Assembly: GCA_003665825.1 (NCBI GenBank)
Contig: QPFY01000014.1
Coordinates: forward strand, 682,001-746,000
DNA: 64,000 bases
Direction of reading: 5' to 3'
Source: Microbotryum silenes-acaulis
Lineage: Eukaryota > Basidiomycota > Microbotryomycetes > Microbotryales > Microbotryaceae
Shown here one piece after another: positions 9,632 to 57,802 of the stretch; position 1 is the stretch's first letter, and every line of letters begins with the position of its first letter. Both the position numbers and the translations under genes were made by a program. A model generated the notes under the pieces. The model searched no databases. It was not told where the DNA came from and saw only the letters and a list, made by a program, of their open reading frames with translations.

Positions 9632-11686
9632 ACACGTCAGTCGCACCGGCGCCGTCAGGAACCCATTGATGATGTAGCGCGCCGAGGTCGAGTCACCCGA
9701 GTAGAGCATCCTCAGCACGCGAAGAAAGGTGGCAGGAGCGCCCAGAGCGTCAAAGATGGCAAAGATCCAGTCATGCTCGACAAGGTCGTAGGCGGATGAT
9801 TGGTCAAGAGACAAGAGCGCGGCCGCGGGGAACTCGGTCCTGCGCGCGCCAAGTTCCTCGATCAGGAGACGAAGGTGTAGCGCAGCGTCGGCCGATCGGC
9901 GGTCCTTGACGAATCCGTGCTGCTGCGGTGGGAGGAGATCGGGCAGAATTTGGTTCAATCGGGCGACGTAGACCTTGGTAAAGATCTTGTAATCGCACTC
10001 GCGCAGGGTGATGGGGCGATACGACGAGAGTTCGGCGCGATCGGCATTCTTCTTGTGGCGCTTGAAGATGAGGCGCACGAGTCCCTGGCCCTGCTTGGGA
10101 GAGAGTGAACCGCGCTCGATCATCGCGTTGTAGGCCTTGGTCAGCACCTTGGACCACGCCTCAGGTGCGGTCTGGTAGAGTTCGTAAGGCACGCCCGACG
10201 GGCCCGGCGATCGCCCCGGGTCCGTCGTCCCGATCGCGGCCACGACCTCGTCCTCGGTGATCAGTCGCTGGAGTAAGTCGATCTGCGATTCCGAGAGTCG
10301 GCGCAGAAAGAGCGGATCCGAGCGCGGGTCGTCGCAAGTCCGCGCCGCCCTGATCGGCGCGAGGAATTCGTCCCGAAGTCGAGCGACGCGGTCCGGGTCG
10401 CGAGGCTCGATGTGGTAGAGGCGCTAAAAATGCGCCTGCGTGTGGTCAAGAGCGACATCAATTTCATGCGTTAGCTCTCCGTTGCTCAAGCGCAGTGCTG
10501 TGATCTTGGAGTCCGAGTTCCGCGCCGCGAGCTTGGCGTGGACCGGCCGCGACAGTCGTTCCTCGGAAGCGATCTCGGGGACGTGGACTCGGATCCGGAG
10601 TAGGCGCGCGCGCTCCTCGACCGCCCGCTTGAGTTCCTCCGACGTCCTCGTCCATTCTGCCGTGTCCTCGTCCCTCCATATCGGTAACGCCTCCAGATCC
10701 TGCACCCTCCCCACCAAATACTCCATCCGTTCCGACCGCTCCCGATGCAGCCTCCTCGCCAGCTCACCACCCCTATCCCTGCACGCCTCCAGAACCTCCT
10801 CGAGCTCCCCCACCGGTTCCTCCCCGCTTGCCCCTTCCAACCATCCTTCCATCATCCGCTGAAATTCCACCGTCTTGAAGGTTGTGGTATTAATTCAATG
10901 TAGTTGGTTGGATGTGGTATGTAGGCTGAGCTGTGGGAGAGTCGCATCAAGATCGTCTGAGAGAGCCAGCACAATCAAGACCGGTCGGTGATCGGAGAGA
11001 TCCTTGGGGTAGTCGTAGATCGTCGAGGCCTGGTCGAGCCTTTTCTGGTGAGTTCGTTGTAGGAGAAAGTAATCAAGCCGGGAGAAGGAGTTGGGTCGCT
11101 TGCGATTGGGGTTGGGTCGAGTGAAAGATGGGGTGATGGGGTGCTTGTAGCGGATGCAGTCCGTGTAGGCCGAGTCGAGCTTGCCGATCAGGATCGGCCA
11201 GTGGTGGTGGCGCCGACTTTGGTTCCGCCGATCGACTTCTGGGCGCGGGCAGTCGTTGAGATCGCCGCCAAGGAGTCGGAGGTGGGATTTCTGTGTTTTG
11301 TGGAGGATCAGTTTGTCGAAGAATTTTGCTCGTTGCTTTGGGTCAACGGGCGCGTAAAGGTTGTTGATTTCTAGAATTTTGATGTCGCCCCGCAGACGAA
11401 AGGAGGTGACGAGGAGCCGGCCGTTGAGTGCCGAGTGGGTGCGCAAGAGCTCGGCGTCGATCAGGGGCGAGTCGGCCGGAATCAGAGTCATACAGTGCTG
11501 GTTGATGAAGAGCTTGCCCTCGTACTCGTCCTTGATGAGCTGCCAGAATTGCGGTCTGATGAAATGCTCTTGTAAGAGAATCGCGGAAGCTTTAAATGTA
11601 GAAAGGTAGGTGTAGATATCACGTCGTTTTTCCGGGACCCCCACGCCCCTTCTTACGTTCCAGGTGATGATGGTGTGCTTGATCAT
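9632..11686 (-). pseudogene. LINE B2 ORF2 (EN-RT), left copy, nonsense-mutated and truncated
   Basis: The endonuclease domain is nearly identical to B1 ([37 protein letters not shown]). Two C-to-T changes on the coding strand create stops: CGA to TGA at 10897-10895 and CAG to TAG at about 10426-10424. RT motifs [25 protein letters not shown] and [15 protein letters not shown] persist, but homology to B1 ends before FADD. It is inactive. Confidence 0.85.
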
Positions 11687-13931
11687 TAATGGGTAGTCGA
11701 GGTCGAGGCGCTCTTGGCGGTGGTGTCGTCCTCAAAGAGGGGGAGGGCGGGCAGGACATCGTCCTCGGGCTCGAGGTCGGACCATCGTTTTTCCTCAGCT
11801 ACCCCTTTTCCTTTCCCTCTGTCCACCTTCGTCACCTCGACCTGCATCGCCGTTGCCGCTGCCATCGACCTCGTCACCCTCCGCCCCTCTATTCCATCCT
11901 TCACCACGACGCGGCTCTTCCCTTTGATGATCACTCGCTTGGCGTCGGTCGGTTCGTCACTTGGGTCACTGAGGTCCGCCGCAGTCTGCGACCTCTTCAT
12001 CACCTGCTTCTTGAACTTCGCAGCGGTCCCCCTGATGTTGATGGAGCGTATCTCACCGTCCTCGTCCCACGTGGCAAAGTTGTGACGCACCAAAGGGGTT
12101 TCAGCGTTGAGCCTCCTCTCGATGCTTTGGTCCCGCTCAAGTCGTGCCTGCTCAACCCAGTTAGCTCTGATCCTGTCCCACTCCTCCCCCTCGCGTAGCG
12201 ACTTGGCGAGAGTTTCGGGTGACAGAGGTGGGGTTGGTTCGTGCGGCGTCGATTCGCGGGAAGCGGTGGCGGCGGTTGCTGTTGCGTCGCTGTCGTCGTC
12301 ATTGTCCAGCCTGTTCGTTTCCCCTAAGTCCGTCGCTTCCGCATTCTCCGCTTTCGTCGATCCCCTCGCCTCGTCCACATCTCCCACCTCCGTCGCCACC
12401 TCCTCTTCCTCCATCTCCGTCGCCACCTCTCCTTCCGTTTCACCTCTTTCATCCGCCATCACCTCATTCTCATCAATCACCTCTCCATCAGATCCGCTGC
12501 AGTCCTCCAAGACCGACTCGTCCTCGCTCTCAATTTTGATGACCTCCGTTTTCGCGGCCGCCTCCGATTCCATCTCCGAGTCCTCCGAGTCCTCCGAGTC
12601 CTCGTCATCCGCCTTATCACCAGCGTCTTCCTCCCCCGATTCCTCCGGCCCCTGTTCGCCCTGGCCAGTTACCTCTTCCTCCTGTCCCTCCTCGACCTCG
12701 AGCCCGGCGAAGTGATTCTGTGATGCGATCCTGTTAACAACCGGCACAGGAATGGGGACCTCGGCCTCCACAATTTTGGTGTCGTTGGTGATGGTGTTCT
12801 TGTTGCTGTTGCTGTTGCTGTTGCTTGTGAGCCTCCTTTCGCTTCCTCTCCTGATCCAATCCGCAGGTTCCCACGTGACCCACAAAGTGGCACCTACCGC
12901 AAGCCGCCTCCTTCTCATAATCATGGCGAAGGGCGGTAACCGGGCTGCCTCGAGTGGGAAGGTCAATCCTGGAAGGTAGAATCTCCTTCAAGGTCGTGTT
13001 GGGGCGTTGGAATAGGGAGTCGTCATCGAAGTGTAGGAAAGCGGAGTAGTCTCCGGCAACGTGGGCGAAGGCCGAGGCGTTGTCCACGCTGATAACGCGC
13101 AGAACCTGCACAAGTTGGCATGAATGTCCCTTGCCTGACAGGTCTTGCACTATTGATTGGAACGATTTGATGATGGCATCCATGGAGGGCATTCCTTGAA
13201 CACCGACGTTGATTCGAAGCTCGACCATGTTATGGTGGAACCTGTGAGACTTCGCGAAGCGGGCCTTCGCCGATCGCCAAGTGAGAGCGGGGGGCGTCGT
13301 GAGCGCCGCGTCACGTGCCTCGCCGGTGACGAACCCAACCGTAACACGATGGTGAGCCGCCCCATTACGCAGAATTGATGAATGTTGTACGCCTAAGATC
13401 TGTGGTTGATAGGCCGCAAGATGGTCCGGCAGAGGAACTCCAGGCTCAAAGCAGATAGGAGAGATCGGCGATAGCAGCCTCGTGCGCAGGCTACGAGATC
13501 GATCTTATCGGCATGAGTCGCTCGCGAGGCGCTCTGGTGAGACAGAGTCACTTCAAGGGCGTAATCAAAAAAATTCTCGACAGACCGGTTCGCGTTCAAG
13601 GCCGAAAATTTCAGCGATGTGGCGGTGGCGACGGGGTAGAGTTCGGCGAAGTAGATGGCCTGGACCCAACGATCCATGCGGTTTCCGGGTACAGCACCCA
13701 TGGCTTGTAATAGGCTGCCCAGAGCCTTGGCACGCTGTTGTTGTTGTTGCTGTTGTTCAGGTGTTTGAGTCGCCATCTGACTCGCAGCGGCGGCATAGTT
13801 GGGTGCGGCGGTCGCCGGGCCCGTGACTTGCGTCTTCTTCGAGCTTATCGGGATCTGGTCGCGGGGTGGCTGGACGCTGGTGGCGGTGCCGGCGGTGCCG
13901 GCAGTGGGGACCCAGGGTCTCCTGTAGACAT
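11686..13931 (-). pseudogene. LINE B2 ORF1 (gag-like), left copy, frameshifted
   Basis: This is homologous throughout to the 759-aa B1 ORF1. Three frame changes are visible: in the Pro/Ala-rich start (about 13872-13896), a one-base loss at about 13487 (B1 has CTGCGTCACG, here CTGCGCACG), and an altered CAA/CAG repeat at about 12824. The zinc-knuckle segment [14 protein letters not shown] and the acidic Glu/Asp-rich C-terminal half remain readable in separate frames. It ends in the same TAATG overlap with ORF2 as B1. It cannot yield a full ORF1 protein. Confidence 0.85.
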
Positions 13932-13987
13932 CTTGTCGGTGTATCACTTGTTAACTCGAGTATCGAAGACTGCGGTAGGGCGATTTC

Positions 13988-14111
13988 GAAGTGAAGTGAA
14001 GTGAAGTGAAGTGAAGTGAAGTGAAGTGAAGTGAAGTGAAGTGAAGTGAAGTGAAGTGAAGTGAAGTGAAGTAAAGTAAAGTGAAGTGAAGTAAAGTGAA
14101 GTGAAGTAAAG
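13988..14111. repeat. (ACTTC)n array at 5' end of LINE B2, left copy
   Basis: This is a pentamer array of about 124 bp (GAAGT on the plus strand) with a few GTAAA variants at the far end. It lies between the A-rich tail of LINE A and the leader of LINE B2. The right copy is about 60 bp (12 units) longer. Confidence 0.95.
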
Positions 14112-15089
14112 TGTGTGTTTTTTTTGTTTTTTTTTGTTTGACTGGGGCTCATAAATTGCTATCCTTCGGGTTGGCTGGGACCGCTACAAAAAGAGCTAAA
14201 GGAGGTTATAAAGCAACGACGGCGAGCAGTTGGGTGAAAGTCAAACCCCTGCGCGCAAAGAGCGCTGCGCAGATCAAAGCCCGCCGAGCACCTAACGCGG
14301 ACTCCAACGGGCGGTGAGTACTGCTGCCGCTTCACGTCCCAAGAGCGGGAGCGAAGATACTCGAAAACCAGGCAAGAGCGCCTAGAGAAAGAAGGGGGAG
14401 AGTATACAGAAAGTCACGACTGGGGATAGAGAGAACCAGGAATACTAAGACAGAGAGGAGGGGAACACACCCGAGGGGCCAAGGGAGGGGGTCGAAGCCG
14501 GAGGTAGAGGTCCCCAGGGACTAACAGGCCGCAGCCAAGCCCCAGCTACTCGTCACCCCGACAGCGCCTGATGCCCTCCCTTGGCTGAGTCTCGAGTGCT
14601 GGCTGTTGAGCCGTCGGGGCCGAGCGAACAACGATCCAATACAACGAAACGGGCCTCGCCTTGACGCGAGGATATTGACCAAGAACGAGCGACCTTTCTT
14701 CCCGAGCCATGCCGTAGATCTTGACCAACGCGAACGAAAGAACCATTCGACGGAATCCAACACACGGCTTAGGAGTAAAAGGAGAAGTGGCTGAAGCGTA
14801 GTCAACAACTGAGCAACAGGAACGAGAAGAGGAAGGGAAGGGAAAAGGGGGGGAAAGGAGAGGGGAGAACTTCACAAAGCCTCCAACGCAAAGACGATCG
14901 ACCGGGCTTGCCGATCCATCCAAGAACGAAGACCGCTACTGCGCAAAGTAGAGAGAGAAAGAGAGGTGCGCAGCCTTCCACTGCGCAACAAGTTTCAAGA
15001 CAGTCAGGTTCTGAAAGAAAAGTCGACCTCCGAAAAAGAAGGGAGGAAAGGAGGGGAGGAAAATAGGAAGGAAGGACTTAACTCGGTCA
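14112..15089 (-). other. LINE A 3' UTR, left copy
   Basis: There is no gene here. It holds polypyrimidine tracts on the element strand, then an A-rich tail interrupted by C that abuts the ACTTC array. Several short open frames overlap but none resembles a protein. Confidence 0.6.
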
Positions 15090-18000
15090 TCACACCTCCC
15101 AATCTCGAGCCCCAGGCACAAAGCCCGCTCGAGAGAGAAAATCTCGCTCGAACGCTCTGAGTGCACTGGGCAGCGAGGGAGGGGCCACGACCTTGTCCAG
15201 CTCGAACCGCTGATGAACGCGCCAGCGGAGCAGGTGCAGCCGCTGGAAGCCGATCGCGCAAGCCAGCCGAACCCACATCCATTTCGAGGTCGTTCTCCCA
15301 CGACCCCGCAAAAGGGGGAGCCCCATAGTCAGCTGCTCCGGCGTGAACGTCGACGGATCGACGTCGGTATCCTCGATGCCGAGCTTGTCGAACAGAATGC
15401 GAAGCACCCCGCCCCAGAAGCTGGTCGAGTACGCGCACTCGAAAAGGTAGTGCGACACCGTCTCGATGACCGCTGCATCGTTGCCGCAGAATAGACACGT
15501 CGGCGAAGAGGCATGACCCTGAGTATGCTGCCTCTTGCGCGTCGGCGTCACGTCGTACATGAGCCGCCAGTGGGTGTCCTGCTCCACAGCAGACGCGAAC
15601 CGGTCATGAAGCCATCTACAGAAGCGCTTCCTATCGCTCTGAGAAGTCCCATCAGGGAAACGCTTGACACGATCCTCCCTCCCTGGGAACCGAACCACGT
15701 TCACAAGCCGACGAAGCTTGCGAATAGTGAACGGTCGGGTGAGCCCAAAGAAGTTGAAGCACCGGGGACGGGGAGCCTCCTTGAGAGGTATCCGAGCAGG
15801 TCGCAACGCGGTCTTGGGCAGCAACGCTTTCGCCTTGAGCAACTGACCCACGCGCGACCACACGTGCTCGTGCTGTAGGGCGGGTTCCTTAGAGTGCTGC
15901 CAGAACCCGCGTCGATGACCAACCAGAGCCCATCCCTTCCCTTCGTCCCTCCAGTACAGGTCCGCGATCTGCGCAAACTTCGCCACTGCGTCCGCATCGT
16001 CATATGCGTGCTTGGCACCTTCAGCATAGAGTGAAGGGAGGCGAGGCGGAAGCGAAAGCAATTCGGGAAGCGTGAGGAGTTCGGACTTGACGGTTGGAAC
16101 TGTGACCCTGGCCGCTGCAACGACTGCCCCCCAACGCGTCGAGTCGCGATACAGCTTCTCGACCCGAGCCGTGCTGCTGAAGAACCCCCACGGACTGAAA
16201 TCGCGGGTCGCAGCGACGAGGGACCTCCAGCTCTCGCGAGCTAGGGGCGCCCAGATCGCCTCGTCCGAGCCCGCCACAGCATCCCAAAATCGAAGCGCCA
16301 CCGAATGAACGATGTCGCCGATCGAAATCAAGCCCAAGCCACCGTCCTCCCGAGCCTGGAACACGAAATCGCGAGCGACGGTATTTCGCCCTGCTCCTCC
16401 CCAGACAAAATCCGTAAGTGCCGTCTCCGCCGCCTTAATGAACCATTGAGGCGGTATGTCGAAGGACAGCACGTGGAGGACCGTCGAGATGATGTGAGCG
16501 TTGGCATAGAAGACCTTCCCACTCGGCGAAAGTGTCCGGTCTCCAGCGGCGCGGGTCTTGGCCTTGATCCTGTCAAGAACATGGGTCAAAAACAGTTTCG
16601 AGTCACCGTGGCGAAAGAAGGCATAGCCGCACCACTTGAAGCTCTCCCCCTCCTGCACCGTTGGCAGCGCCTGCGCAGTCTCGTCCCGAAGCCAGTTCGG
16701 TCCGAGTGGTAGCACCAGCGTCTTGTCCGTGTTGGTCTTCCCGTTGGTTGCCTCGTACCACGTCTGCGACAGCGTTTGCAGCTTCGACAATGCCGCCGGT
16801 GACTCCACCACCACCACAGCATCATCGGCAAACGCCAGATGCGTAAGCTGCGCACGCGGCCCTCCTGGCCACACCTTCTGCAGGTCGAGCGCGATCCCGC
16901 GCCGCACGAGGGCGTCGAGAAAGGGTTGGAACGTGATGTTCCAAACCGGGCACGAGAGGGGATCCCCCTGACCGAGACCACACAGCAACCGCACCAAGTC
17001 CGTGGGGAACCCATTGACAAGGTAGCGCACCCCCAGAGTCTCGGGATCGTAGAGAGCGCGCAGCAGCGAGATGAAACGCTCGCCGAACCCAAACGCCTCA
17101 AAGACCTCGAAGATCCAGGCGTGATCGACCCGATCGTACGCGCTCTGCTGATCCAAAGACAAGAGGGCGCCCTCGGGGAAAACTTCAGTGCCTAGCGACT
17201 TGAGTTTTTCGAGAAGGAGAGTGAGATGACTTCCCGCGTCCGCTGAACGTCTTGATGGCATGAAACCGTGTTGCGCCGGCGGCAAAAGCTCGCCAAGCAC
17301 CCCATTGAGTCGCGCCACCAAGACCTTGCTGAGGACCTTGTAGGTCGTCTCGCGCAATGTGATCGGTCGGTATGCCCCCAGTGATTTCAGATTGGCCCCC
17401 GGTTTATTCTTGGGCAAGAGCCGCACCAGCCCCTCTGCCAAGGACGCCGTCATTTTGCCGCCCTCCCAAATCGAGTTGAACAAGTCCAACAGCTTGGGAG
17501 CAAAGTAGGTTGGCAGCGCCTTGAAGAGCTCGTACGGAATGCCCGAGGGCCCCGGTGATCGCCCCGAATCCGTCTTCTTCAACGCCGCTTCAACCTCGAG
17601 GAGGGTGAAGGGCTCGTCAAGCGCCACTCTCGCTTGACGAGGCAGCCGACGACCGAACGTAGGGTCCGAGCGGTCGTCATCGTAGCATTTCGCTGCGCGA
17701 ATAGGGTCGAGCAGGGACCGACGTGCGTTCGTCGGGTCGCCACGAGCTGGGTCCGGCGTGAAGAGCGACTGCGCGTGCCGTGAAGCAATACCCAGCGCCT
17801 CCTGCATGTCAACGGTCTCGGTGCCATCCACATCCTCCAGCGAGACGATGCTCGTCTGGCGACTCCGGCGGTTGAGGCGCGTGCGAATGCTTGCCGATTG
17901 ACCTTCCCTCGAGTCGACTGACGGCACATGCGCACGGATGCGCAGCCACTGAGCCTCCTTTACCGCCAACTGGTCCAACCGCGACTTGGCAAGAGTATAC

Positions 18001-19091
18001 GCATCGCGCTCGGCCTCATTCATGTGCTCACCGCGTGCCTCCAAAGCCTCCATGACGGATCGGCTCTCGGCCCGCAGTCGGCGCATGTCGGCACGAGTCG
18101 AGCGGTATCGTGCATGGCCAGCGACTGCAACCGCCCGCAGAGCGGCGTCATAGACTTCGCCGAGCGGAGCGGTCCCCTCGAGCCTTTGATAGACCTCGTC
18201 GACGACCCCGGGAATCGATGCGACAAAGTCTTGATCGTCAAAGACCGTTGGGTTGAGCCTCGAAATGAAATCGCTCGTAGAGGGAAGAGAAAGGGGGGGT
18301 TCGGCATCAGCGTTCGATGTAGGCAAAGCGAAAGTTGCAACTACAGGTCTGTGGTCCGAACATGGCGCGTCGAAGAGCGTAGAAGCGCTCAACAACCGGT
18401 TCGCCCAACTGGATTGGACAAGAATATAGTCGATCCGCGACCACGAGCAAATCTTTCGCTCTTCCCCTCTACCACGGTAGTGAGGACGAGTGAATGCGGG
18501 GGTGCAAGGATGGACATGTCGGACCGTGTCGAGTGCCTTGAACGCGATCTTTGACAGCAAGGTCTGCCAGTGCGATACAGGAGTCCAAGCGCGATCGGTG
18601 ATGGACACTCGGTCGACCGATACATCCGGACAATCGTTGAGATCGCCGGCCAAGATCCGAAGAGTCTTGGGTCTCGGGGCGTTGAAGTGCAGAAGCCCGA
18701 AAAAGTCGCGACGATCGTCCTCCTGCACCGGCGCGTACATGTTGATGATCTCGACATCGAGCTCCTCAAGACGAAACACCGAGCGCAGAATCCGACCGTC
18801 GAAACGAGGAGCTCCTGCAAAGACGACCGGGGTGGAGGAAAGGAGATGGCCCGCCAAAGGTGAGCCATCGGGTATGAGGGTAAGGACATGAGGAGTGAAA
18901 CGAATACAAGCCCCTGGCCAAGCACTCTCGAAGCCTTCGCGCGAGGCGTTGTAGCTGAGGTGGTGCTCTTGCAGGAGGATGGCCGCAGGGGCCGGCCGAA
19001 GGGTTTTGAGATAACGGATGATTTTGACTTGATTGACTGCGTTCTTCATCGATCGGACGTTGAACGTCAACACGGTGAGGGACTCAATCAT
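15090..19091 (-). CDS. LINE A ORF2: APE endonuclease-reverse transcriptase
   Basis: The 1333-aa protein nicks target DNA and copies its own RNA there. The APE-type endonuclease occupies about residues 1-260: TFNVRSM, LLQEHH, AGDLNDCP, SRIDYILVQ and SDHRPVV supply the Asn, Glu, Asp, Asp and His positions of the family. The RT core spans about 500-800: [51 protein letters not shown] and the catalytic LAFADDAVVV. A C-terminal CX2CX11HX4C motif (CLFCGNDAAVIETVSHYLFEC) lies near 1235. I see no RNase H domain. The start ATG lies two bases after the ORF1 stop, so translation probably depends on reinitiation. All motifs are intact, so activity is possible. Confidence 0.9.
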   Translation of the reverse strand: MIESLTVLTFNVRSMKNAVNQVKIIRYLKTLRPAPAAILLQEHHLSYNASREGFESAWPGACIRFTPHVLTLIPDGSPLAGHLLSSTPVVFAGAPRFDGRILRSVFRLEELDVEIINMYAPVQEDDRRDFFGLLHFNAPRPKTLRILAGDLNDCPDVSVDRVSITDRAWTPVSHWQTLLSKIAFKALDTVRHVHPCTPAFTRPHYRGRGEERKICSWSRIDYILVQSSWANRLLSASTLFDAPCSDHRPVVATFALPTSNADAEPPLSLPSTSDFISRLNPTVFDDQDFVASIPGVVDEVYQRLEGTAPLGEVYDAALRAVAVAGHARYRSTRADMRRLRAESRSVMEALEARGEHMNEAERDAYTLAKSRLDQLAVKEAQWLRIRAHVPSVDSREGQSASIRTRLNRRSRQTSIVSLEDVDGTETVDMQEALGIASRHAQSLFTPDPARGDPTNARRSLLDPIRAAKCYDDDRSDPTFGRRLPRQARVALDEPFTLLEVEAALKKTDSGRSPGPSGIPYELFKALPTYFAPKLLDLFNSIWEGGKMTASLAEGLVRLLPKNKPGANLKSLGAYRPITLRETTYKVLSKVLVARLNGVLGELLPPAQHGFMPSRRSADAGSHLTLLLEKLKSLGTEVFPEGALLSLDQQSAYDRVDHAWIFEVFEAFGFGERFISLLRALYDPETLGVRYLVNGFPTDLVRLLCGLGQGDPLSCPVWNITFQPFLDALVRRGIALDLQKVWPGGPRAQLTHLAFADDAVVVVESPAALSKLQTLSQTWYEATNGKTNTDKTLVLPLGPNWLRDETAQALPTVQEGESFKWCGYAFFRHGDSKLFLTHVLDRIKAKTRAAGDRTLSPSGKVFYANAHIISTVLHVLSFDIPPQWFIKAAETALTDFVWGGAGRNTVARDFVFQAREDGGLGLISIGDIVHSVALRFWDAVAGSDEAIWAPLARESWRSLVAATRDFSPWGFFSSTARVEKLYRDSTRWGAVVAAARVTVPTVKSELLTLPELLSLPPRLPSLYAEGAKHAYDDADAVAKFAQIADLYWRDEGKGWALVGHRRGFWQHSKEPALQHEHVWSRVGQLLKAKALLPKTALRPARIPLKEAPRPRCFNFFGLTRPFTIRKLRRLVNVVRFPGREDRVKRFPDGTSQSDRKRFCRWLHDRFASAVEQDTHWRLMYDVTPTRKRQHTQGHASSPTCLFCGNDAAVIETVSHYLFECAYSTSFWGGVLRILFDKLGIEDTDVDPSTFTPEQLTMGLPLLRGRGRTTSKWMWVRLACAIGFQRLHLLRWRVHQRFELDKVVAPPSLPSALRAFERDFLSRAGFVPGARDWEV

Positions 19092-19093
19092 GA

Positions 19094-19912
19094 TTAAATC
19101 AGTTCAGCGCCGCCCCCCTCGAATTCGGTCACCTCGGACCTGTGACCCCCTGAACTGTTGCCCCCTGAGCCGTCACCCCCTGATGCACCGAGGATCATGG
19201 CGGATCCCGCCCGGGTGACACGTCGGTTGCCGGGTGCCGAGCTCGAACGAAGGCGTCGAGGACTCGTCGAGGCTATCGAGATTGTCGAGGTGGCCGATGA
19301 TCCCGACGTGCCACCGGACAACGGCGAAGCCGGAGCAGAAGCAGAAGGCGAAGGAGAGGTCGGGGTCGAAACGGGCGCCGCCGTCGTCGTCTGCGTCTCC
19401 TTTGTTGAGCCCATGGTCGCACGCGTTGACGTCTCTTCCCCAGTGTCGCCGCCCTCCGGTTCGGTCGAAGCGACCGACTCGTCGTCGCCGTCGCCGTCGT
19501 TCGCATCGTCCTTGTTGCCGGTCGCTGCACCTGCGGGGTTAGCACGAGGTCCCAGCTGGATCATGTTCGCGCCAGAGACGCGAGAGTTCAATGCGGCAGG
19601 CCCACCGTGCTTCCCATTCTTTCCAGCGACTCGGAAGCCGGTAGTCGAAGTCGAAGTCGAGGTCCCCGGAACAGGGGCGGCGGTGGCCGGAGTCGAAGCC
19701 GGCTTCCTGCAAGCGCCCCACTGGTGTCCGGCGCGATCGCACACCGCGCAGTAGTGCGTCTCGAATTCGTGTCGCAAGCCGTACTTGGCGCCCAGGATCT
19801 CGATCTCTTGTGGCAAGGCGGCGTTGAGCGCAGCCTTCTGCGTCTCGGTAGAGCCTTGGAAAAGATCAGCATGTAAGCGAAGGTACGCGCAGTGGAACCC
19901 GTCTTCGGTCAT
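19094..19912 (-). CDS. LINE A ORF1: CCHC zinc-knuckle RNA-binding protein
   Basis: The 272-aa frame starts at the first ATG after the leader A-run. A classic CX2CX4HX4C knuckle (CAVCDRAGHQWGAC) lies at about residues 55-68. A long Ser/Thr/Pro/Gly-rich tail with acidic patches follows. In LINEs such ORF1 products bind the element RNA. The frame stays open upstream to about 20146 through both 126-bp units, but no ATG-led start supports that extension, so I chose the ATG. It ends TAA, then TC, then the ORF2 ATG. Confidence 0.8.
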   Translation of the reverse strand: MTEDGFHCAYLRLHADLFQGSTETQKAALNAALPQEIEILGAKYGLRHEFETHYCAVCDRAGHQWGACRKPASTPATAAPVPGTSTSTSTTGFRVAGKNGKHGGPAALNSRVSGANMIQLGPRANPAGAATGNKDDANDGDGDDESVASTEPEGGDTGEETSTRATMGSTKETQTTTAAPVSTPTSPSPSASAPASPLSGGTSGSSATSTISIASTSPRRLRSSSAPGNRRVTRAGSAMILGASGGDGSGGNSSGGHRSEVTEFEGGGAELI

Positions 19913-47312: not shown

Positions 47313-48512
47313 AGTAGACGGCGCTCCTCCCTACCCAGCCAAGAACCACAAACCAAAAACCAAATAAAAATCACAAGTCCCCTTTCCCTCTTTCTCAATC
47401 TCCAAAATGTCTCCCAAACACGCCAGAATACTGAACCTGTTTTCTCTCGCTCTTTTTGCCATTCCTCCTCATAGGCTTCCGTACTCCCCAGGAGCCTCGG
47501 GTTCTTTGCGCCGGCGGGCATTGTCGCCCTTGGTTCGAGCTTCTGCCACATCACGATGACACACAGCGAAAGCGGATCCCCTTGGCCCTCTCCTGGACTA
47601 CGCCGTGAGTTTTCCACTCCTCTCAAGGGCCGGGTCTGTCTTCTCTTTCGGTCGAGCGACTCCGTGATCTCCTGTTCAAGGCCGGCACAAACTGCCTGCG
47701 TGGCTCGCCTCTCCTTGCTTTGCTGCTCGCTCGGAGTCGCGGCCGCGCGGCGGGTGACTCGGGTACCGAACCGCCATACACATCCACACTCGAGCGAGGT
47801 CCCACACAATGACATCACCGTCGTGGGCCTCATGCTCCTTCTTTCCCCAGTATCTGCGGTGATTGGGAACCACCTGCACGTACAACGGGACTCGAGTGTG
47901 CGTTCCGAGATTGGGAGTACGCCGCAGGGAAGCGAGGCCCCTGCGGAAGGTATACCCGCCTCTGGTCTCCAGCCGCGCGCCGGTGTTGTCGGCCACCCGC
48001 CCGCGCTGCAGACCGAGGCGTGTCCAATGGACTGTCACATGCTCCGTGACTTTCCCCGGAAATCTCGGGATTGTGTGTTTTTGTGCGAAGTAGGCCTGTT
48101 TCGCAGTTGCAGTCATTGAAATGGGGGTGATCTGGGGTCGTGCGGTCGCGAGGGGGGGGGCCGACTTTGGTAACCGAAAAGGGGTTTGGAATCCGCGGTG
48201 CAGATCCAGCGCAGTTGGGTACAAGGGGTAGGTGATTGCTGCGGTCGCAGGGGGTTACATCCCCCCTTTGGACCACGTGAATCATTCGGATTGAGCGGGA
48301 TGTTTGTGCCATCGGAGGCCTTGTTCGACGCGTGTCAAAGAATTAAGGGGCTTCAAGGAGTAGGGCGGTCTCAGGGGGGGTCTGAAGTCAAAAGATCGAA
48401 GAAGGTTCAACTGTACAACTATAATCGGATTCGCCTGTACAACACATGTACCACCACCAACAATTCCTCCATCGTTTCCCGATTCCTTGTGTATTATCTT
48501 CAATCTTCCTTT
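47313..48512. other. Non-coding stretch between LINE C and LINE A, right copy
   Basis: Mirror of the left stretch, with a G9 run near 48155 where the left has C10. This is the single-base step in arm alignment. No gene seen. Confidence 0.5.
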
Positions 48513-48587
48513 CATTCGTCTCTGGGAGGGAGCAACCGTGGGTGGGGGGGACTTGAACTCGGATGTATCGGGTTGGTCTGTTCTGCT

Positions 48588-48834
48588 AGTTACAACGCAT
48601 CGAGCGGCGGTTGTGGTCATCATCGTGCATACTGGGCAGCATCTCCTTTAGTTCCGTAGGGGGTTTTCTCGTCTTGCAAATTAGCGATGAGTTTCATACA
48701 AAAAAAAATAATCAGTTACAACGCATCGAGCGGCGGTTGTGGTCATCATCGTGCATACTGGGCAGCATCTCCTTTAGTTCCGTAGGGGGTTTTCTCGTCT
48801 TGCAAATTAGCGATGAGTTTCATACAAAAAAAAA
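48588..48834. repeat. Two 126-bp direct repeats in LINE A leader, right copy
   Basis: The units start at 48588 and 48714 and each ends in an A9 run; mirror of 19923-20169. Confidence 0.85.
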
Positions 48835-48844
48835 CAACACGGCC

Positions 48845-49663
48845 ATGACCGAAGACGGGTTCCACTGCGCGTACCTTCGCTTACATGCTGATCTTTTCCA
48901 AGGCTCTACCGAGACGCAGAAGGCTGCGCTCAACGCCGCCTTGCCACAAGAGATCGAGATCCTGGGCGCCAAGTACGGCTTGCGACACGAATTCGAGACG
49001 CACTACTGCGCGGTGTGCGATCGCGCCGGACACCAGTGGGGCGCTTGCAGGAAGCCGGCTTCGACTCCGGCCACCGCCGCCCCTGTTCCGGGGACCTCGA
49101 CTTCGACTTCGACTACCGGCTTCCGAGTCGCTGGAAAGAATGGGAAGCACGGTGGGCCTGCCGCATTGAACTCTCGCGTCTCTGGCGCGAACATGATCCA
49201 GCTGGGACCTCGTGCTAACCCCGCAGGTGCAGCGACCGGCAACAAGGACGATGCGAACGACGGCGACGGCGACGACGAGTCGGTCGCTTCGACCGAACCG
49301 GAGGGCGGCGACACTGGGGAAGAGACGTCAACGCGTGCGACCATGGGCTCAACAAAGGAGACGCAGACGACGACGGCGGCGCCCGTTTCGACCCCGACCT
49401 CTCCTTCGCCTTCTGCTTCTGCTCCGGCTTCGCCGTTGTCCGGTGGCACGTCGGGATCATCGGCCACCTCGACAATCTCGATAGCCTCGACGAGTCCTCG
49501 ACGCCTTCGTTCGAGCTCGGCACCCGGCAACCGACGTGTCACCCGGGCGGGATCCGCCATGATCCTCGGTGCATCAGGGGGTGACGGCTCAGGGGGCAAC
49601 AGTTCAGGGGGTCACAGGTCCGAGGTGACCGAATTCGAGGGGGGCGGCGCTGAACTGATTTAA
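48845..49663 (+). CDS. LINE A ORF1, right copy
   Basis: 272 aa from the first ATG after the leader A-run; CCHC knuckle CAVCDRAGHQWGAC. Same as the left copy. Confidence 0.8.
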   Translation: MTEDGFHCAYLRLHADLFQGSTETQKAALNAALPQEIEILGAKYGLRHEFETHYCAVCDRAGHQWGACRKPASTPATAAPVPGTSTSTSTTGFRVAGKNGKHGGPAALNSRVSGANMIQLGPRANPAGAATGNKDDANDGDGDDESVASTEPEGGDTGEETSTRATMGSTKETQTTTAAPVSTPTSPSPSASAPASPLSGGTSGSSATSTISIASTSPRRLRSSSAPGNRRVTRAGSAMILGASGGDGSGGNSSGGHRSEVTEFEGGGAELI

Positions 49664-49665
49664 TC

Positions 49666-52600
49666 ATGATTGAGTCCCTCACCGTGTTGACGTTCAACGT
49701 CCGATCGATGAAGAACGCAGTCAATCAAGTCAAAATCATCCGTTATCTCAAAACCCTTCGGCCGGCCCCTGCGGCCATCCTCCTGCAAGAGCACCACCTC
49801 AGCTACAACGCCTCGCGCGAAGGCTTCGAGAGTGCTTGGCCAGGGGCTTGTATTCGTTTCACTCCTCATGTCCTTACCCTCATACCCGATGGCTCACCTT
49901 TGGCGGGCCATCTCCTTTCCTCCACCCCGGTCGTCTTTGCAGGAGCTCCTCGTTTCGACGGTCGGATTCTGCGCTCGGTGTTTCGTCTTGAGGAGCTCGA
50001 TGTCGAGATCATCAACATGTACGCGCCGGTGCAGGAGGACGATCGTCGCGACTTTTTCGGGCTTCTGCACTTCAACGCCCCGAGACCCAAGACTCTTCGG
50101 ATCTTGGCCGGCGATCTCAACGATTGTCCGGATGTATCGGTCGACCGAGTGTCCATCACCGATCGCGCTTGGACTCCTGTATCGCACTGGCAGACCTTGC
50201 TGTCAAAGATCGCGTTCAAGGCACTCGACACGGTCCGACATGTCCATCCTTGCACCCCCGCATTCACTCGTCCTCACTACCGTGGTAGAGGGGAAGAGCG
50301 AAAGATTTGCTCGTGGTCGCGGATCGACTATATTCTTGTCCAATCCAGTTGGGCGAACCGGTTGTTGAGCGCTTCTACGCTCTTCGACGCGCCATGTTCG
50401 GACCACAGACCTGTAGTTGCAACTTTCGCTTTGCCTACATCGAACGCTGATGCCGAACCCCCCCTTTCTCTTCCCTCTACGAGCGATTTCATTTCGAGGC
50501 TCAACCCAACGGTCTTTGACGATCAAGACTTTGTCGCATCGATTCCCGGGGTCGTCGACGAGGTCTATCAAAGGCTCGAGGGGACCGCTCCGCTCGGCGA
50601 AGTCTATGACGCCGCTCTGCGGGCGGTTGCAGTCGCTGGCCATGCACGATACCGCTCGACTCGTGCCGACATGCGCCGACTGCGGGCCGAGAGCCGATCC
50701 GTCATGGAGGCTTTGGAGGCACGCGGTGAGCACATGAATGAGGCCGAGCGCGATGCGTATACTCTTGCCAAGTCGCGGTTGGACCAGTTGGCGGTAAAGG
50801 AGGCTCAGTGGCTGCGCATCCGTGCGCATGTGCCGTCAGTCGACTCGAGGGAAGGTCAATCGGCAAGCATTCGCACGCGCCTCAACCGCCGGAGTCGCCA
50901 GACGAGCATCGTCTCGCTGGAGGATGTGGATGGCACCGAGACCGTTGACATGCAGGAGGCGCTGGGTATTGCTTCACGGCACGCGCAGTCGCTCTTCACG
51001 CCGGACCCAGCTCGTGGCGACCCGACGAACGCACGTCGGTCCCTGCTCGACCCTATTCGCGCAGCGAAATGCTACGATGACGACCGCTCGGACCCTACGT
51101 TCGGTCGTCGGCTGCCTCGTCAAGCGAGAGTGGCGCTTGACGAGCCCTTCACCCTCCTCGAGGTTGAAGCGGCGTTGAAGAAGACGGATTCGGGGCGATC
51201 ACCGGGGCCCTCGGGCATTCCGTACGAGCTCTTCAAGGCGCTGCCAACCTACTTTGCTCCCAAGCTGTTGGACTTGTTCAACTCGATTTGGGAGGGCGGC
51301 AAAATGACGGCGTCCTTGGCAGAGGGGCTGGTGCGGCTCTTGCCCAAGAATAAACCGGGGGCCAATCTGAAATCACTGGGGGCATACCGACCGATCACAT
51401 TGCGCGAGACGACCTACAAGGTCCTCAGCAAGGTCTTGGTGGCGCGACTCAATGGGGTGCTTGGCGAGCTTTTGCCGCCGGCGCAACACGGTTTCATGCC
51501 ATCAAGACGTTCAGCGGACGCGGGAAGTCATCTCACTCTCCTTCTCGAAAAACTCAAGTCGCTAGGCACTGAAGTTTTCCCCGAGGGCGCCCTCTTGTCT
51601 TTGGATCAGCAGAGCGCGTACGATCGGGTCGATCACGCCTGGATCTTCGAGGTCTTTGAGGCGTTTGGGTTCGGCGAGCGTTTCATCTCGCTGCTGCGCG
51701 CTCTCTACGATCCCGAGACTCTGGGGGTGCGCTACCTTGTCAATGGGTTCCCCACGGACTTGGTGCGGTTGCTGTGTGGTCTCGGTCAGGGGGATCCCCT
51801 CTCGTGCCCGGTTTGGAACATCACGTTCCAACCCTTTCTCGACGCCCTCGTGCGGCGCGGGATCGCGCTCGACCTGCAGAAGGTGTGGCCAGGAGGGCCG
51901 CGTGCGCAGCTTACGCATCTGGCGTTTGCCGATGATGCTGTGGTGGTGGTGGAGTCACCGGCGGCATTGTCGAAGCTGCAAACGCTGTCGCAGACGTGGT
52001 ACGAGGCAACCAACGGGAAGACCAACACGCACAAGACGCTGGTGCTACCACTCGGACCGAACTGGCTTCGGGACGAGACTGCGCAGGCGCTGCCAACGGT
52101 GCAGGAGGGGGAGAGCTTCAAGTGGTGCGGCTATGCCTTCTTTCGCCACGGTGACTCGAAACTGTTTTTGACCCATGTTCTTGACAGGATCAAGGCCAAG
52201 ACCCGCGCCGCTGGAGACCGGACACTTTCGCCGAGTGGGAAGGTCTTCTATGCCAACGCTCACATCATCTCGACGGTCCTCCACGTGCTGTCCTTCGACA
52301 TACCGCCTCAATGGTTCATTAAGGCGGCGGAGACGGCACTTACGGATTTTGTCTGGGGAGGAGCAGGGCGAAATACCGTCGCTCGCGATTTCGTGTTCCA
52401 GGCTCGGGAGGACGGTGGCTTGGGCTTGATTTCGATCGGCGACATCGTTCATTCGGTGGCGCTTCGATTTTGGGATGCTGTGGCGGGCTCGGACGAGGCG
52501 ATCTGGGCGCCCCTAGCTCGCGAGAGCTGGAGGTCCCTCGTCGCTGCGACCCGCGATTTCAGTCCGTGGGGGTTCTTCAGCAGCACGGCTCGGGTCGAGA

Positions 52601-53667
52601 AGCTGTATCGCGACTCGACGCGTTGGGGGGCAGTCGTTGCAGCGGCCAGGGTCACAGTTCCAACCGTCAAGTCCGAACTCCTCACGCTTCCCGAATTGCT
52701 TTCGCTTCCGCCTCGCCTCCCTTCACTCTATGCTGAAGGTGCCAAGCACGCATATGACGATGCGGACGCAGTGGCGAAGTTTGCGCAGATCGCGGACCTG
52801 TACTGGAGGGACGAAGGGAAGGGATGGGCTCTGGTTGGTCATCGACGCGGGTTCTGGCAGCACTCTAAGGAACCCGCCCTACAGCACGAGCACGTGTGGT
52901 CGCGCGTGGGTCAGTTGCTCAAGGCGAAAGCGTTGCTGCCCAAGACCGCGTTGCGACCTGCTCGGATACCTCTCAAGGAGGCTCCCCGTCCCCGGTGCTT
53001 CAACTTCTTTGGGCTCACCCGACCGTTCACTATTCGCAAGCTTCGTCGGCTTGTGAACGTGGTTCGGTTCCCAGGGAGGGAGGATCGTGTCAAGCGTTTC
53101 CCTGATGGGACTTCTCAGAGCGATAGGAAGCGCTTCTGTAGATGGCTTCATGACCGGTTCGCGTCTGCTGTGGAGCAGGACACCCACTGGCGGCTCATGT
53201 ACGACGTGACGCCGACGCGCAAGAGGCAGCATACTCAGGGTCATGCCTCTTCGCCGACGTGTCTATTCTGCGGCAACGATGCAGCGGTCATCGAGACGGT
53301 GTCGCACTACCTTTTCGAGTGCGCGTACTCGACCAGCTTCTGGGGCGGGGTGCTTCGCATTCTGTTCGACAAGCTCGGCATCGAGGATACCGACGTCGAT
53401 CCGTCGACGTTCACGCCGGAGCAGCTGACTATGGGGCTCCCCCTTTTGCGGGGTCGTGGGAGAACGACCTCGAAATGGATGTGGGTTCGGCTGGCTTGCG
53501 CGATCGGCTTCCAGCGGCTGCACCTGCTCCGCTGGCGCGTTCATCAGCGGTTCGAGCTGGACAAGGTCGTGGCCCCTCCCTCGCTGCCCAGTGCACTCAG
53601 AGCGTTCGAGCGAGATTTTCTCTCTCGAGCGGGCTTTGTGCCTGGGGCTCGAGATTGGGAGGTGTGA
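49666..53667 (+). CDS. LINE A ORF2 (EN-RT), right copy
   Basis: 1333 aa. It differs from the left copy by an Asp to His change in the segment TNGKTNTDKT (codon CAC at 52030-52032, left GAC at 16727-16725). This Asp is also present at the same place in B1 and C (GRLNTDKT), so the right copy may be impaired. The catalytic FADD is intact. Confidence 0.9.
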   Translation: MIESLTVLTFNVRSMKNAVNQVKIIRYLKTLRPAPAAILLQEHHLSYNASREGFESAWPGACIRFTPHVLTLIPDGSPLAGHLLSSTPVVFAGAPRFDGRILRSVFRLEELDVEIINMYAPVQEDDRRDFFGLLHFNAPRPKTLRILAGDLNDCPDVSVDRVSITDRAWTPVSHWQTLLSKIAFKALDTVRHVHPCTPAFTRPHYRGRGEERKICSWSRIDYILVQSSWANRLLSASTLFDAPCSDHRPVVATFALPTSNADAEPPLSLPSTSDFISRLNPTVFDDQDFVASIPGVVDEVYQRLEGTAPLGEVYDAALRAVAVAGHARYRSTRADMRRLRAESRSVMEALEARGEHMNEAERDAYTLAKSRLDQLAVKEAQWLRIRAHVPSVDSREGQSASIRTRLNRRSRQTSIVSLEDVDGTETVDMQEALGIASRHAQSLFTPDPARGDPTNARRSLLDPIRAAKCYDDDRSDPTFGRRLPRQARVALDEPFTLLEVEAALKKTDSGRSPGPSGIPYELFKALPTYFAPKLLDLFNSIWEGGKMTASLAEGLVRLLPKNKPGANLKSLGAYRPITLRETTYKVLSKVLVARLNGVLGELLPPAQHGFMPSRRSADAGSHLTLLLEKLKSLGTEVFPEGALLSLDQQSAYDRVDHAWIFEVFEAFGFGERFISLLRALYDPETLGVRYLVNGFPTDLVRLLCGLGQGDPLSCPVWNITFQPFLDALVRRGIALDLQKVWPGGPRAQLTHLAFADDAVVVVESPAALSKLQTLSQTWYEATNGKTNTHKTLVLPLGPNWLRDETAQALPTVQEGESFKWCGYAFFRHGDSKLFLTHVLDRIKAKTRAAGDRTLSPSGKVFYANAHIISTVLHVLSFDIPPQWFIKAAETALTDFVWGGAGRNTVARDFVFQAREDGGLGLISIGDIVHSVALRFWDAVAGSDEAIWAPLARESWRSLVAATRDFSPWGFFSSTARVEKLYRDSTRWGAVVAAARVTVPTVKSELLTLPELLSLPPRLPSLYAEGAKHAYDDADAVAKFAQIADLYWRDEGKGWALVGHRRGFWQHSKEPALQHEHVWSRVGQLLKAKALLPKTALRPARIPLKEAPRPRCFNFFGLTRPFTIRKLRRLVNVVRFPGREDRVKRFPDGTSQSDRKRFCRWLHDRFASAVEQDTHWRLMYDVTPTRKRQHTQGHASSPTCLFCGNDAAVIETVSHYLFECAYSTSFWGGVLRILFDKLGIEDTDVDPSTFTPEQLTMGLPLLRGRGRTTSKWMWVRLACAIGFQRLHLLRWRVHQRFELDKVVAPPSLPSALRAFERDFLSRAGFVPGARDWEV

Positions 53668-54646
53668 TGACCGAGTTAAGTCCTTCCTTCCTATTTTCCT
53701 CCCCTCCTTTCCTCCCTTCTTTTTCGGAGGTCGACTTTTCTTTCAGAACCTGACTGTCTTGAAACTTGTTGCGCAGTGGAAGGCTGCGCACCTCTCTTTC
53801 TCTCTCTACTTTGCGCAGTAGCGGTCTTCGTTCTTGGATGGATCGGCAAGCCCGGTCGATCGTCTTTGCGTTGGAGGCTTTGTGAAGTTCTCCCCTCTCC
53901 TTTCCCCCCCTTTTCCCTTCCCTTCCTCTTCTCGTTCCTGTTGCTCAGTTGTTGACTACGCTTCAGCCACTTCTCCTTTTACTCCTAAGCCGTGTGTTGG
54001 ATTCCGTCGAATGGTTCTTTCGTTCGCGTTGGTCAAGATCTACGGCATGGCTCGGGAAGAAAGGTCGCTCGTTCTTGGTCAATATCCTCGCGTCAAGGCG
54101 AGGCCCGTTTCGTTGTATTGGATCGTTGTTCGCTCGGCCCCGACGGCTCAACAGCCAGCACTCGAGACTCAGCCAAGGGAGGGCATCAGGCGCTGTCGGG
54201 GTGACGAGTAGCTGGGGCTTGGCTGCGGCCTGTTAGTCCCTGGGGACCTCTACCTCCGGCTTCGACCCCCTCCCTTGGCCCCTCGGGTGTGTTCCCCTCC
54301 TCTCTGTCTTAGTATTCCTGGTTCTCTCTATCCCCAGTCGTGACTTTCTGTATACTCTCCCCCTTCTTTCTCTAGGCGCTCTTGCCTGGTTTTCGAGTAT
54401 CTTCGCTCCCGCTCTTGGGACGTGAAGCGGCAGCAGTACTCACCGCCCGTTGGAGTCCGCGTTAGGTGCTCGGCGGGCTTTGATCTGCGCAGCGCTCTTT
54501 GCGCGCAGGGGTTTGACTTTCACCCAACTGCTCGCCGTCGTTGCTTTATAACCTCCTTTAGCTCTTTTTGTAGCGGTCCCAGCCAACCCGAAGGATAGCA
54601 ATTTATGAGCCCCAGTCAAACAAAAAAAAACAAAAAAAACACACAC
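53668..54646 (+). other. LINE A 3' UTR, right copy
   Basis: Pyrimidine-rich tracts, then an A-rich tail broken by C. No coding signal. Confidence 0.6.
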
Positions 54647-54828
54647 TTTACTTCACTTCACTTTACTTCACTTCACTTTACTTTACTTCACTTCACTTCA
54701 CTTCACTTCACTTCACTTCACTTCACTTCACTTCACTTCACTTCACTTCACTTCACTTCACTTCACTTCACTTCACTTCACTTCACTTCACTTCACTTCA
54801 CTTCACTTCACTTCACTTCACTTCACTT
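54647..54828. repeat. (ACTTC)n array at LINE B2, right copy
   Basis: About 182 bp, about 60 bp longer than the left partner; TTTAC variants cluster next to the LINE A tail in both copies. Confidence 0.95.
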
Positions 54829-54885
54829 CGAAATCGCCCTACCGCAGTCTTCGATACTCGAGTTAACAAGTGATACACCGACAAG

Positions 54886-57131
54886 ATGTCTACAGGAGAC
54901 CCTGGGTCCCCACTGCCGGCACCGCCGGCACCGCCACCAGCGTCCAGCCACCCCGCGACCAGATCCCGATAAGCTCGAAGAAGACGCAAGTCACGGGCCC
55001 GGCGACCGCCGCACCCAACTATGCCGCCGCTGCGAGTCAGATGGCGACTCAAACACCTGAACAACAGCAACAACAACAACAGCGTGCCAAGGCTCTGGGC
55101 AGCCTATTACAAGCCATGGGTGCTGTACCCGGAAACCGCATGGATCGTTGGGTCCAGGCCATCTACTTCGCCGAACTCTACCCCGTCGCCACCGCCACAT
55201 CGCTGAAGTTTTCGGCCTTGAACGCGAACCGGTCTGTCGAGAAAATTTTTGATTACGCCCTTGAAGTGACTCTGTCTCACCAGAGCGCCTCGCGAGCGAC
55301 TCATGCCGATAAGATCGATCTCGTAGCCTGCGCACGAGGCTGCTATCGCCGATCTCTCCTATCTGCTTTGAGCCTGGAGTTCCTCTGCCGGACCATCTTG
55401 CGGCCTATCAACCACAGATCTTAGGCGTACAACATTCATCAATTCTGCGTAATGGGGCGGCTCACCATCGTGTTACGGTTGGGTTCGTCACCGGCGAGGC
55501 ACGTGACGCGGCGCTCACGACGCCCCCCGCTCTCACTTGGCGATCGGCGAAGGCCCGCTTCGCGAAGTCTCACAGGTTCCACCATAACATGGTCGAGCTT
55601 CGAATCAACGTCGGTGTTCAAGGAATGCCCTCCATGGATGCCATCATCAAATCGTTCCAATCAATAGTGCAAGACCTGTCAGGCAAGGGACATTCATGCC
55701 AACTTGTGCAGGTTCTGCGCGTTATCAGCGTGGACAACGCCTCGGCCTTCGCCCACGTTGCCGGAGACTACTCCGCTTTCCTACACTTCGATGACGACTC
55801 CCTATTCCAACGCCCCAACACGACCTTGAAGGAGATTCTACCTTCCAGGATTGACCTTCCCACTCGAGGCAGCCCGGTTACCGCCCTTCGCCATGATTAT
55901 GAGAAGGAGGCGGCTTGCGGTAGGTGCCACTTTGTGGGTCACGTGGGAACCTGCGGATTGGATCAGGAGAGGAAGCGAAAGGAGGCTCACAAGCAACAGC
56001 AACAGCAACAGCAACAAGAACACCATCACCAACGACACCAAAATTGTGGAGGCCGAGGTCCCCATTCCTGTGCCGGTTGTTAACAGGATCGCATCACAGA
56101 ATCACTTCGCCGGGCTCGAGGTCGAGGAGGGACAGGAGGAAGAGGTAACTGGCCAGGGCGAACAGGGGCCGGAGGAATCGGGGGAGGAAGACGCTGGTGA
56201 TAAGGCGGATGACGAGGACTCGGAGGACTCGGAGGACTCGGAGATGGAATCGGAGGCGGCCGCGAAAACGGAGGTCATCAAAATTGAGAGCGAGGACGAG
56301 TCGGTCTTGGAGGACTGCAGCGGATCTGATGGAGAGGTGATTGATGAGAATGAGGTGATGGCGGATGAAAGAGGTGAAACGGAAGGAGAGGTGGCGACGG
56401 AGATGGAGGAAGAGGAGGTGGCGACGGAGGTGGGAGATGTGGACGAGGCGAGGGGATCGACGAAAGCGGAGAATGCGGAAGCGACGGACTTAGGGGAAAC
56501 GAACAGGCTGGACAATGACGACGACAGCGACGCAACAGCAACCGCCGCCACCGCTTCCCGCGAATCGACGCCGCACGAACCAACCCCACCTCTGTCACCC
56601 GAAACTCTCGCCAAGTCGCTACGCGAGGGGGAGGAGTGGGACAGGATCAGAGCTAACTGGGTTGAGCAGGCACGACTTGAGCGGGACCAAAGCATCGAGA
56701 GGAGGCTCAACGCTGAAACCCCTTTGGTGCGTCACAACTTTGCCACGTGGGACGAGGACGGTGAGATACGCTCCATCAACATCAGGGGGACCGCTGCGAA
56801 GTTCAAGAAGCAGGTGATGAAGAGGTCGCAGACTGCGGCGGACCTCAGTGACCCAAGTGACGAACCGACCGACGCCAAGCGAGTGATCATCAAAGGGAAG
56901 AGCCGCGTCGTGGTGAAGGATGGAATAGAGGGGCGGAGGGTGACGAGGTCGATGGCAGCGGCAACGGCGATGCAGGTCGAGGTGACGAAGGTGGACAGAG
57001 GGAAAGGAAAAGGGGTAGCTGAGGAAAAACGATGGTCCGACCTCGAGCCCGAGGACGATGTCCTGCCCGCCCTCCCCCTCTTTGAGGACGACACCACCGC
57101 CAAGAGCGCCTCGACCTCGACTACCCATTAA
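54886..57131 (+). pseudogene. LINE B2 ORF1, right copy, frameshifted
   Basis: Carries the same three frame changes as the left copy (about 54921-54945, 55330 and 55993), so they predate the inverted duplication. It differs from the left by a few bases, for instance GAGAAAATTTTTGATT where the left reads GAGAATTTTTTTGATT. Confidence 0.85.
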
Positions 57132-57802
57132 TGATCAAGCACACCATCATCACCTGGAACGTAAGAAGGGGCGTGGGGGTCCCGGAAAAACGACGTGATA
57201 TCTACACCTACCTTTCTACATTTAAAGCTTCCGCGATTCTCTTACAAGAGCATTTCATCAGACCGCAATTCTGGCAGCTCATCAAGGACGAGTACGAGGG
57301 CAAGCTCTTCATCAACCAGCACTGTATGACTCTGATTCCGGCCGACTCGCCCCTGATCGACGCCGAGCTCTTGCGCACCCACTCGGCACTCAACGGCCGG
57401 CTCCTCGTCACCTCCTTTCGTCTGCGGGGCGACATCAAAATTCTAGAAATCAACAACCTTTACGCGCCCGTTGACCCAAAGCAACGAGCAAAATTCTTCG
57501 ACAAACTGATCCTCCACAAAACACAGAAATCCCACCTCCGACTCCTTGGCGGCGATCTCAACGACTGCCCGCGCCCAGAAGTCGATCGGCGGAACCAAAG
57601 TCGGCGCCACCACCACTGGCCGATCCTGATCGGCAAGCTCGACTCGGCCTACACGGACTGCATCCGCTACAAGCACCCCATCACCCCATCTTTCACTCGA
57701 CCCAACCCCAATCGCAAGCGACCCAACTCCTTCTCCCGGCTTGATTACTTTCTCCTACAACGAACTCACCAGAAAAGACTCGACCAGGCCTCGACGATCT
57801 AC
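57131..57802 (+). pseudogene. LINE B2 ORF2 fragment, right copy
   Basis: Open for 224 codons of endonuclease (TWNVRRG to SRLDYFLLQ), then fused to unrelated sequence and a stop at 57853. No RT remains. Confidence 0.85.

Follow-up and report, generated by a model that had tools for sequence, protein, structure and literature searches.

A probable recent fold-back inverted duplication of a LINE stack in Microbotryum silenes-acaulis

The window analysed here, 64,000 nucleotides of Microbotryum silenes-acaulis DNA (contig QPFY01000014.1, hereafter C14; C14:682001-746000), belongs to an assembly of 29.85 Mb in 88 contigs, which was used for all genome searches, and contains a large inverted repeat composed of stacked long interspersed nuclear elements (LINEs). 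Comparison of the window with itself by BLAST returned a single long inverted match, 11015-33118 against 57802-35618, which extends over 22,186 columns at 99.6% identity including gaps; chance cannot explain an inverted match of such length. The arms, which are present in the assembly as a sequence-only reading of the window had proposed, enclose a spacer of 2,499 bp (33119-35617). That reading had also described the arms as colinear mirror images with coordinate sums of 68736 to 68817, and the sum of paired coordinates is indeed 68736 where the arms face the spacer and 68817 at their outer ends. It had further called for a count of arm-to-arm substitutions, expecting differences only in pentamer arrays, one homopolymer and a few single bases. 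Alignment of the arms with MAFFT bore this out, revealing six substituted bases (at 11039, 13572, 13573, 13609, 16727 and 32111), a lone 1-bp gap in a homopolymer at 20597, and GAAGT arrays that differ in length by gaps of 60 and 22 bp.

Each arm carries, from the outside inwards, LINEs A, B, C and D, a tRNA gene and the outer part, P, of a dispersed repeat, with all the LINE 5' ends directed towards the spacer (Table 1). The three to four LINEs and the tRNA gene anticipated for each arm are thus four LINEs, A being incomplete, and a tRNA gene confirmed by Rfam, which ARAGORN in its bacterial setting did not detect. Open reading frame (ORF) 2 of LINEs B and D and, as separate pieces, the broken ORF2 of A contain Pfam PF03372 and PF00078, and hence the apurinic-type endonuclease (EN) and reverse transcriptase (RT) of an L1-type ORF2, while LINE C gave RT only. 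LINE D ORF2 also displays a weak zf-RVT domain, resembles LINE-1 ORF2 protein chains (E 4e-24) and shares 95% identity with proteins of M. silenes-dioicae and M. saponariae; no Pfam family matched its ORF1. The 5' GAAGT array of LINE D lies at 31947-32200, and the T-run that represents the A-tail of LINE B comes after the GAAGT array of LINE A. A 126-bp tandem pair (19923-20169; 48588-48837) is a doubled LINE C 3' end in which each unit has its own T-run, and appears to be a very short LINE C piece beside a long one.

Table 1. Coordinates of the features in the window
Feature	Position	Strand	Remarks
Left flank	1..9616	.	DUF4246 gene 7979-9103 (+)
LINE A, left	9617..14113	-	3' part missing, starts at base matching LINE D 27542; 5' GAAGT array 13988-14113
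Left arm	11015..33118	+	22,104 bp; BLAST, MAFFT
LINE B, left	14114..19920	-	ORF2 15090-19091 (EN, RT, weak zf-RVT); boundaries approximate
LINE C, left	19921..25500	-	RT ORF 21446-25288; A-tail; boundaries approximate
LINE D, left	25526..32200	-	ORF1 29611-31890 (759 aa), ORF2 25592-29611 (1339 aa); 3' boundary approximate
tRNA gene, left arm	32270..32386	+	Rfam, 46.6 bits; long intron
P, left arm	32469..33118	+	outer 650 bp of dispersed repeat with imperfect terminal inverted repeats
Spacer, left part (Q and X')	33119..34663	+	internal section of the repeat of P
Spacer, right part (Y)	34664..35617	+	other internal section of the repeat of P, in inverted order relative to X'
Right arm	35618..57802	-	22,185 bp; BLAST, MAFFT
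P, right arm	35618..36267	-	mirror of left P
tRNA gene, right arm	36350..36466	-	Rfam
LINE D, right	36536..43232	+	self-match
LINE C, right	43258..48837	+	boundaries mirrored from left arm
LINE B, right	48838..54643	+	boundaries mirrored from left arm
LINE A, right	54644..57802	+	truncated at 57802 inside ORF2
Solo LTR-like repeat	57803..58088	+	about 286 bp; end at 58085 or 58088; TGTTGT...ACAACA ends
Right flank	58089..64000	.	BTB-like gene 59472-61146 (-); RING-like ORFs 61515-62912 (+)

The centre of the structure carries the clearest record of how it may have arisen. P, Q, X' and Y are parts of one repeat, with imperfect terminal inverted repeats (TIRs) that match at 74-80% over 47-101 bp within and between copies, and the family of the spacer repeat gives dozens of genome matches across many contigs. 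The copy at C22:216982-219881 (~70% identity) has the order P, reverse complement of Y, X' and tail, and those on C8 and C11 consist of P, then 768-769 bp lacking a match in the window, then Q, X' and tail; the order in the window is P, Q and X' followed by Y and the reverse complement of P, with the tail missing. X' continues into a tail of ~440 bp in all eight other copies (C1, C4, C5, C8, C11, C22, L007 and L008), the tail is absent from the window at 34663, and only the window sequence spans 34663/34664 among the genome matches listed. Since the other copies run from X' into the tail and the window alone crosses this join, 34663/34664 is a rearrangement junction, inverted in order and encountered only here. 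The possibility that the inverted arm was simply inserted between X' and its tail was considered and rejected, as the right flank lacks the tail. The ~3-kb dispersed repeat represented at C22:216982-219881 has many internal-deletion copies; its reading frames had no match in Pfam, and from a motif we take them to be helicase-like.

Both outer arm ends fall inside LINE A, the left arm starting at 11015. The left LINE A extends beyond the arm to 9617, where it ends 2 kb before the 3' end of LINE D with other DNA beyond, and the right LINE A breaks off at 57802 against a repeat, beyond which DNA without other matches begins. The claim that both ends abut different unique DNA thus had to be abandoned, as both lie within a LINE and the right one meets this repeat. 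The repeat (57803-58088) occurs in at least 40 other places in the genome, and seven same-strand pairs 4.4-4.8 kb apart, together with the TGTTGT...ACAACA ends, suggest that it is a long terminal repeat (LTR). No target-site duplication is seen around it, TCTAC standing before it and ACACC (for an end at 58085) or CCAAC (for an end at 58088) after it. Reciprocal LTR junctions were sought genome-wide with patterns that presuppose the end at 58085 and a 5-bp duplication; the first gave two matches with one mismatch but none that was exact, and the second gave none.

Comparison with copies elsewhere in the genome bears on the origin and age of the arms. Among the matches listed, the LINE B piece scored 3609 bits in both arms and 3533 in the next copy, the LINE C piece 4691 and 4683 bits in the arms and 4655 in the next copy, and the LINE D piece 3608 bits in both arms and 3580 in the next copy, while the tRNA-side piece was 100% identical in both arms and the next best match, which was partial, reached 95%. 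Since the arms score above every other listed copy, the elements in them seem to have been duplicated as a single block. With 7/7, 5/7 and 5/6 of the retrieved copies aligned at the three places used for polarization, and the left-arm LINE D counted as another copy at the first two, the right arm is derived at 11039 (the left base occurs in 8/8 others), 13609 (6/6) and 16727 (5/5), and the left arm at 13572 (the right base occurs in 6/6 others); 13573 yielded no polarity, and 32111, which lies inside an array, was left out. Outside the arrays there are five substitutions in 22.1 kb, or ~2.3 per 10,000 sites, and with neutral rates taken as 1e-9 to 1e-8 per site and year the duplication would be roughly ten thousand to a hundred thousand years old, an age that assembly errors could lower. 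Repeat-induced point mutation (RIP) was rejected as the source of the arm differences, as none of the six is a C-to-T change in TCG/CGA. A RIP-like index, modelled on the definition in the excerpted text of PMC10502011 with its overlap term slightly altered, was -0.29 to -0.47 for the LINEs, -0.11 for the tRNA and P stretch, 0.01 for the spacer, and -0.32 and -0.33 for the flanks; by these values mutation looks no heavier in the arms than around them.

It could be argued that the structure is an old palindrome whose arms gene conversion has kept uniform, in the manner of those on sex chromosomes. The sequence-only reading had left recent origin and conversion side by side, the arms are very highly identical, and conversion is a known property of large inverted repeats that lie close together. 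Recent origin, however, fits the arm scores and the changes private to one arm, and youth explains the identity without conversion, which is neither needed nor shown: derived arm bases were absent from all the other copies compared, and no conversion tract from another copy was evident at the polarized sites. On contigs that are not certainly whole chromosomes, the mating-type markers map to C6 (STE3 at 824 kb), C6:95 kb and C10:888 kb (homeobox matches), with none on C14. Although the structure resembles the palindromes of the human Y and, as described in excerpts on willow, those of willow sex chromosomes in its long arms, very high identity and short spacer, it differs in lying on a contig where no mating-type marker was found and in holding transposable elements and one tRNA gene instead of amplified host genes. 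We regard maintenance by conversion as distinctly improbable.

An error of assembly, in which one block, or two separate blocks, longer than the reads were falsely joined as mirror images, has somewhat more to recommend it, in that arms of 22 kb can exceed the length of long reads and the few arm differences include length changes in arrays and a homopolymer, where polishing errors gather. Neither identical outer sides nor a contig end at the fold was found, however. The flanks differ, C14 (900,541 bp) continues and has TTAGGG telomere repeats at its right-hand end, the asymmetric spacer is only 2.5 kb long and should be crossed by single reads, and private substitutions occur in both arms, all of which agrees with the earlier view that this is not simply a folded read. 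A true inverted repeat that had been misresolved would, moreover, presumably do no more than flip the spacer. An assembly error is thus considered unlikely.

A short core enclosed by inverted repeats, each with a tRNA gene towards its inner end, also recalls the regional centromeres of the inverted-repeat type found in fission yeast (Schizosaccharomyces pombe) and, in the excerpted account of it, Candida tropicalis, where tRNA genes lie near the core. The core of the present structure, however, is a dispersed repeat with relatives on many contigs, and in 40 kb around each of five other spacer-repeat copies there was neither a match of at least 150 bp to the window LINEs nor a similar inverted repeat, so the architecture is not reproduced at these five sites. 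A sixth copy (C5:1536549-1540070, in the region C5:1532706-1540070) goes the other way: a broken LINE D reaches C5:1536182, 0.4 kb from the end of P and in the orientation seen in the window, and the pairing of LINE D with the spacer repeat is thus not peculiar to C14. The window also lacks a long tandem satellite, the arrays detected by TRF all being 276 bp or shorter, while Microbotryum centromeres are predicted by long tandem satellite according to excerpts of PMC10502011 and PMC5962589. That the locus is a centromere is therefore very hard to credit.

The inverted repeat is probably a recent fold-back inverted segmental duplication, a quasi-palindrome on C14 that needs no function. The inverted block copies are more alike than are the other listed copies of their parts, and the central junction has an inverted order; from this anatomy of arms, spacer and junction, observed in the present assembly, we infer a copy-back event. 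A one-way LINE stack, with the tRNA gene and the outer part of the TIR repeat, would have given rise to a reversed copy adjacent to itself. A strand that broke or stalled may have left the repeat at 34663, re-entered the opposite strand in a repeat of the same kind at 34664, and then copied back through the arm, either by a fold-back template switch or after sister-chromatid fusion, while the left copy would additionally have lost the piece between P and Q. As no target-site duplication is seen at the LTR-like repeat, the far end would most simply have been closed by recombination between two LTR copies. The arms consist of transposable elements and one tRNA gene, and the few differences are private to one arm; thus we see no sign of a selected function. 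Telomere-telomere fusion was rejected, as an exact four-unit TTAGGG pattern had no match in the window and its matches are terminal on every contig of known length, a group that does not include C19, C47 and C73. Known fold-back inverted duplications, attributed to inverted template switching or breakage-fusion-bridge cycles, similarly have short asymmetric spacers, differing outer flanks and junctions in repeats; the present structure differs in lying within a contig that bears telomere repeats farther towards its end, and in that the event is read back from its product.

It should be emphasized, however, that several points weigh against a recent fold-back duplication. The long-range structure comes from one assembly, six differences in 22 kb are near what the errors of long-read assembly could give, and no relative that lacks the duplication came to light. 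Copying back is deduced from one junction, at which the reference for Y (C22) is only ~70% identical and microhomology cannot be judged, and the LTR junction had no clear reciprocal in the genome search. Copies of LINEs C and D elsewhere round to 100% identity, which suggests that these families have been active recently, so their identity between the arms is by itself weak evidence; LINE B and the tRNA-side piece would provide the stronger evidence for block duplication.

The one-way order of the LINEs may have an explanation of its own. A LINE C 3' end lies within 200 bp of a LINE D 5' end on the same strand at no fewer than 5 of 31 LINE D ends, and on the opposite strand at none; within 500 bp there are at least six on the same strand and, again, none on the opposite strand, while random placement, with LINE C copies on contigs of known length, averaged 0.009 and never exceeded 2 in 5000 trials. 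These counts are lower bounds (at least 38 LINE C copies were compared), and the 31 LINE D 5' ends were placed by extrapolation (1 of 32 fell off its contig), some being off, as L070, one that was checked, has no GAAGT array. The sites with LINE C at the array are C16:151.6k, C4:1341.9k, C8:183.7k, C8:1407.2k and C7:1296.4k. The letters were inspected at all five, although at one of them (L064) the stretch covered only the last five letters of the array. Three have the T-run of LINE C directly after the GAAGT units or a few bases on, and in the remaining two a short piece, of LINE B in one and of other sequence in the other, separates array from T-run; LINE B adjoins the GAAGT array of LINE A in like manner in the window. 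The 5'-terminal GAAGT arrays of LINEs A and D thus look like same-strand landing sites for the A-tailed LINEs B and C. In their same-strand, head-to-tail stacks and insertion at repeat arrays these LINEs resemble Zepp and the telomeric LINEs, but here, in an anther smut, the landing site is the pentamer array that another LINE family carries at its 5' end. A wider proposal, which we offer tentatively and consider doubtful as a whole, is that the arrays serve as landing pads for tail-first LINEs inserting in the same direction, and that the resulting one-way stacks, when they lie beside a TIR repeat, seed large fold-back inverted duplications that escape the RIP-like defence of the fungus. Six LINE C copies also lie on one strand at ~8-9 kb spacing in C7:1155754-1200960.

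On the left of the structure, 6700-9616 is single-copy in the genome, bar short or diverged pieces, and 75% of the DUF4246 ORF aligns, at 92% identity, with MVLG_04999 of Microbotryum lychnidis-dioicae. On the right, 58096-60600 had no further match in the genome, and the BTB-like gene had two matches (M. saponariae and M. lychnidis-dioicae) at 82-83% identity over 48% of the query. The flank orthologues MVLG_04999 and MVLG_05697 lie on M. lychnidis-dioicae contigs of 134 and 101 kb, respectively, a placement compatible both with flanks that were once neighbours and with flanks that were not. The left flank also contains a perfect 19-bp tandem repeat of 6.7 copies (6477-6603), just past which (6700-6776) pieces of 33-77 bp recur at ten other genome matches. 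Minus-strand ORFs at 2351-4768 give the impression of transposase-gene remnants, and the ORF at 3476-4543 (-) gave a sub-threshold GCM match.

Inverted repeats that are large and near-perfect are regarded as unstable, and as easily lost or missed in assemblies. Excerpts of the open-licence literature contained no report of a large nuclear palindrome in a Microbotryum, nor of LINE stacking of this kind. A young inverted repeat with readable junctions would show how stacked transposable elements can come to be duplicated in reverse, in a genus that is studied for chromosome rearrangement. The inverted repeat on C14 would also offer a natural substrate for the study of palindrome stability and arm-to-arm exchange, and the landing-pad behaviour suggested for the LINEs can be tested genome-wide.

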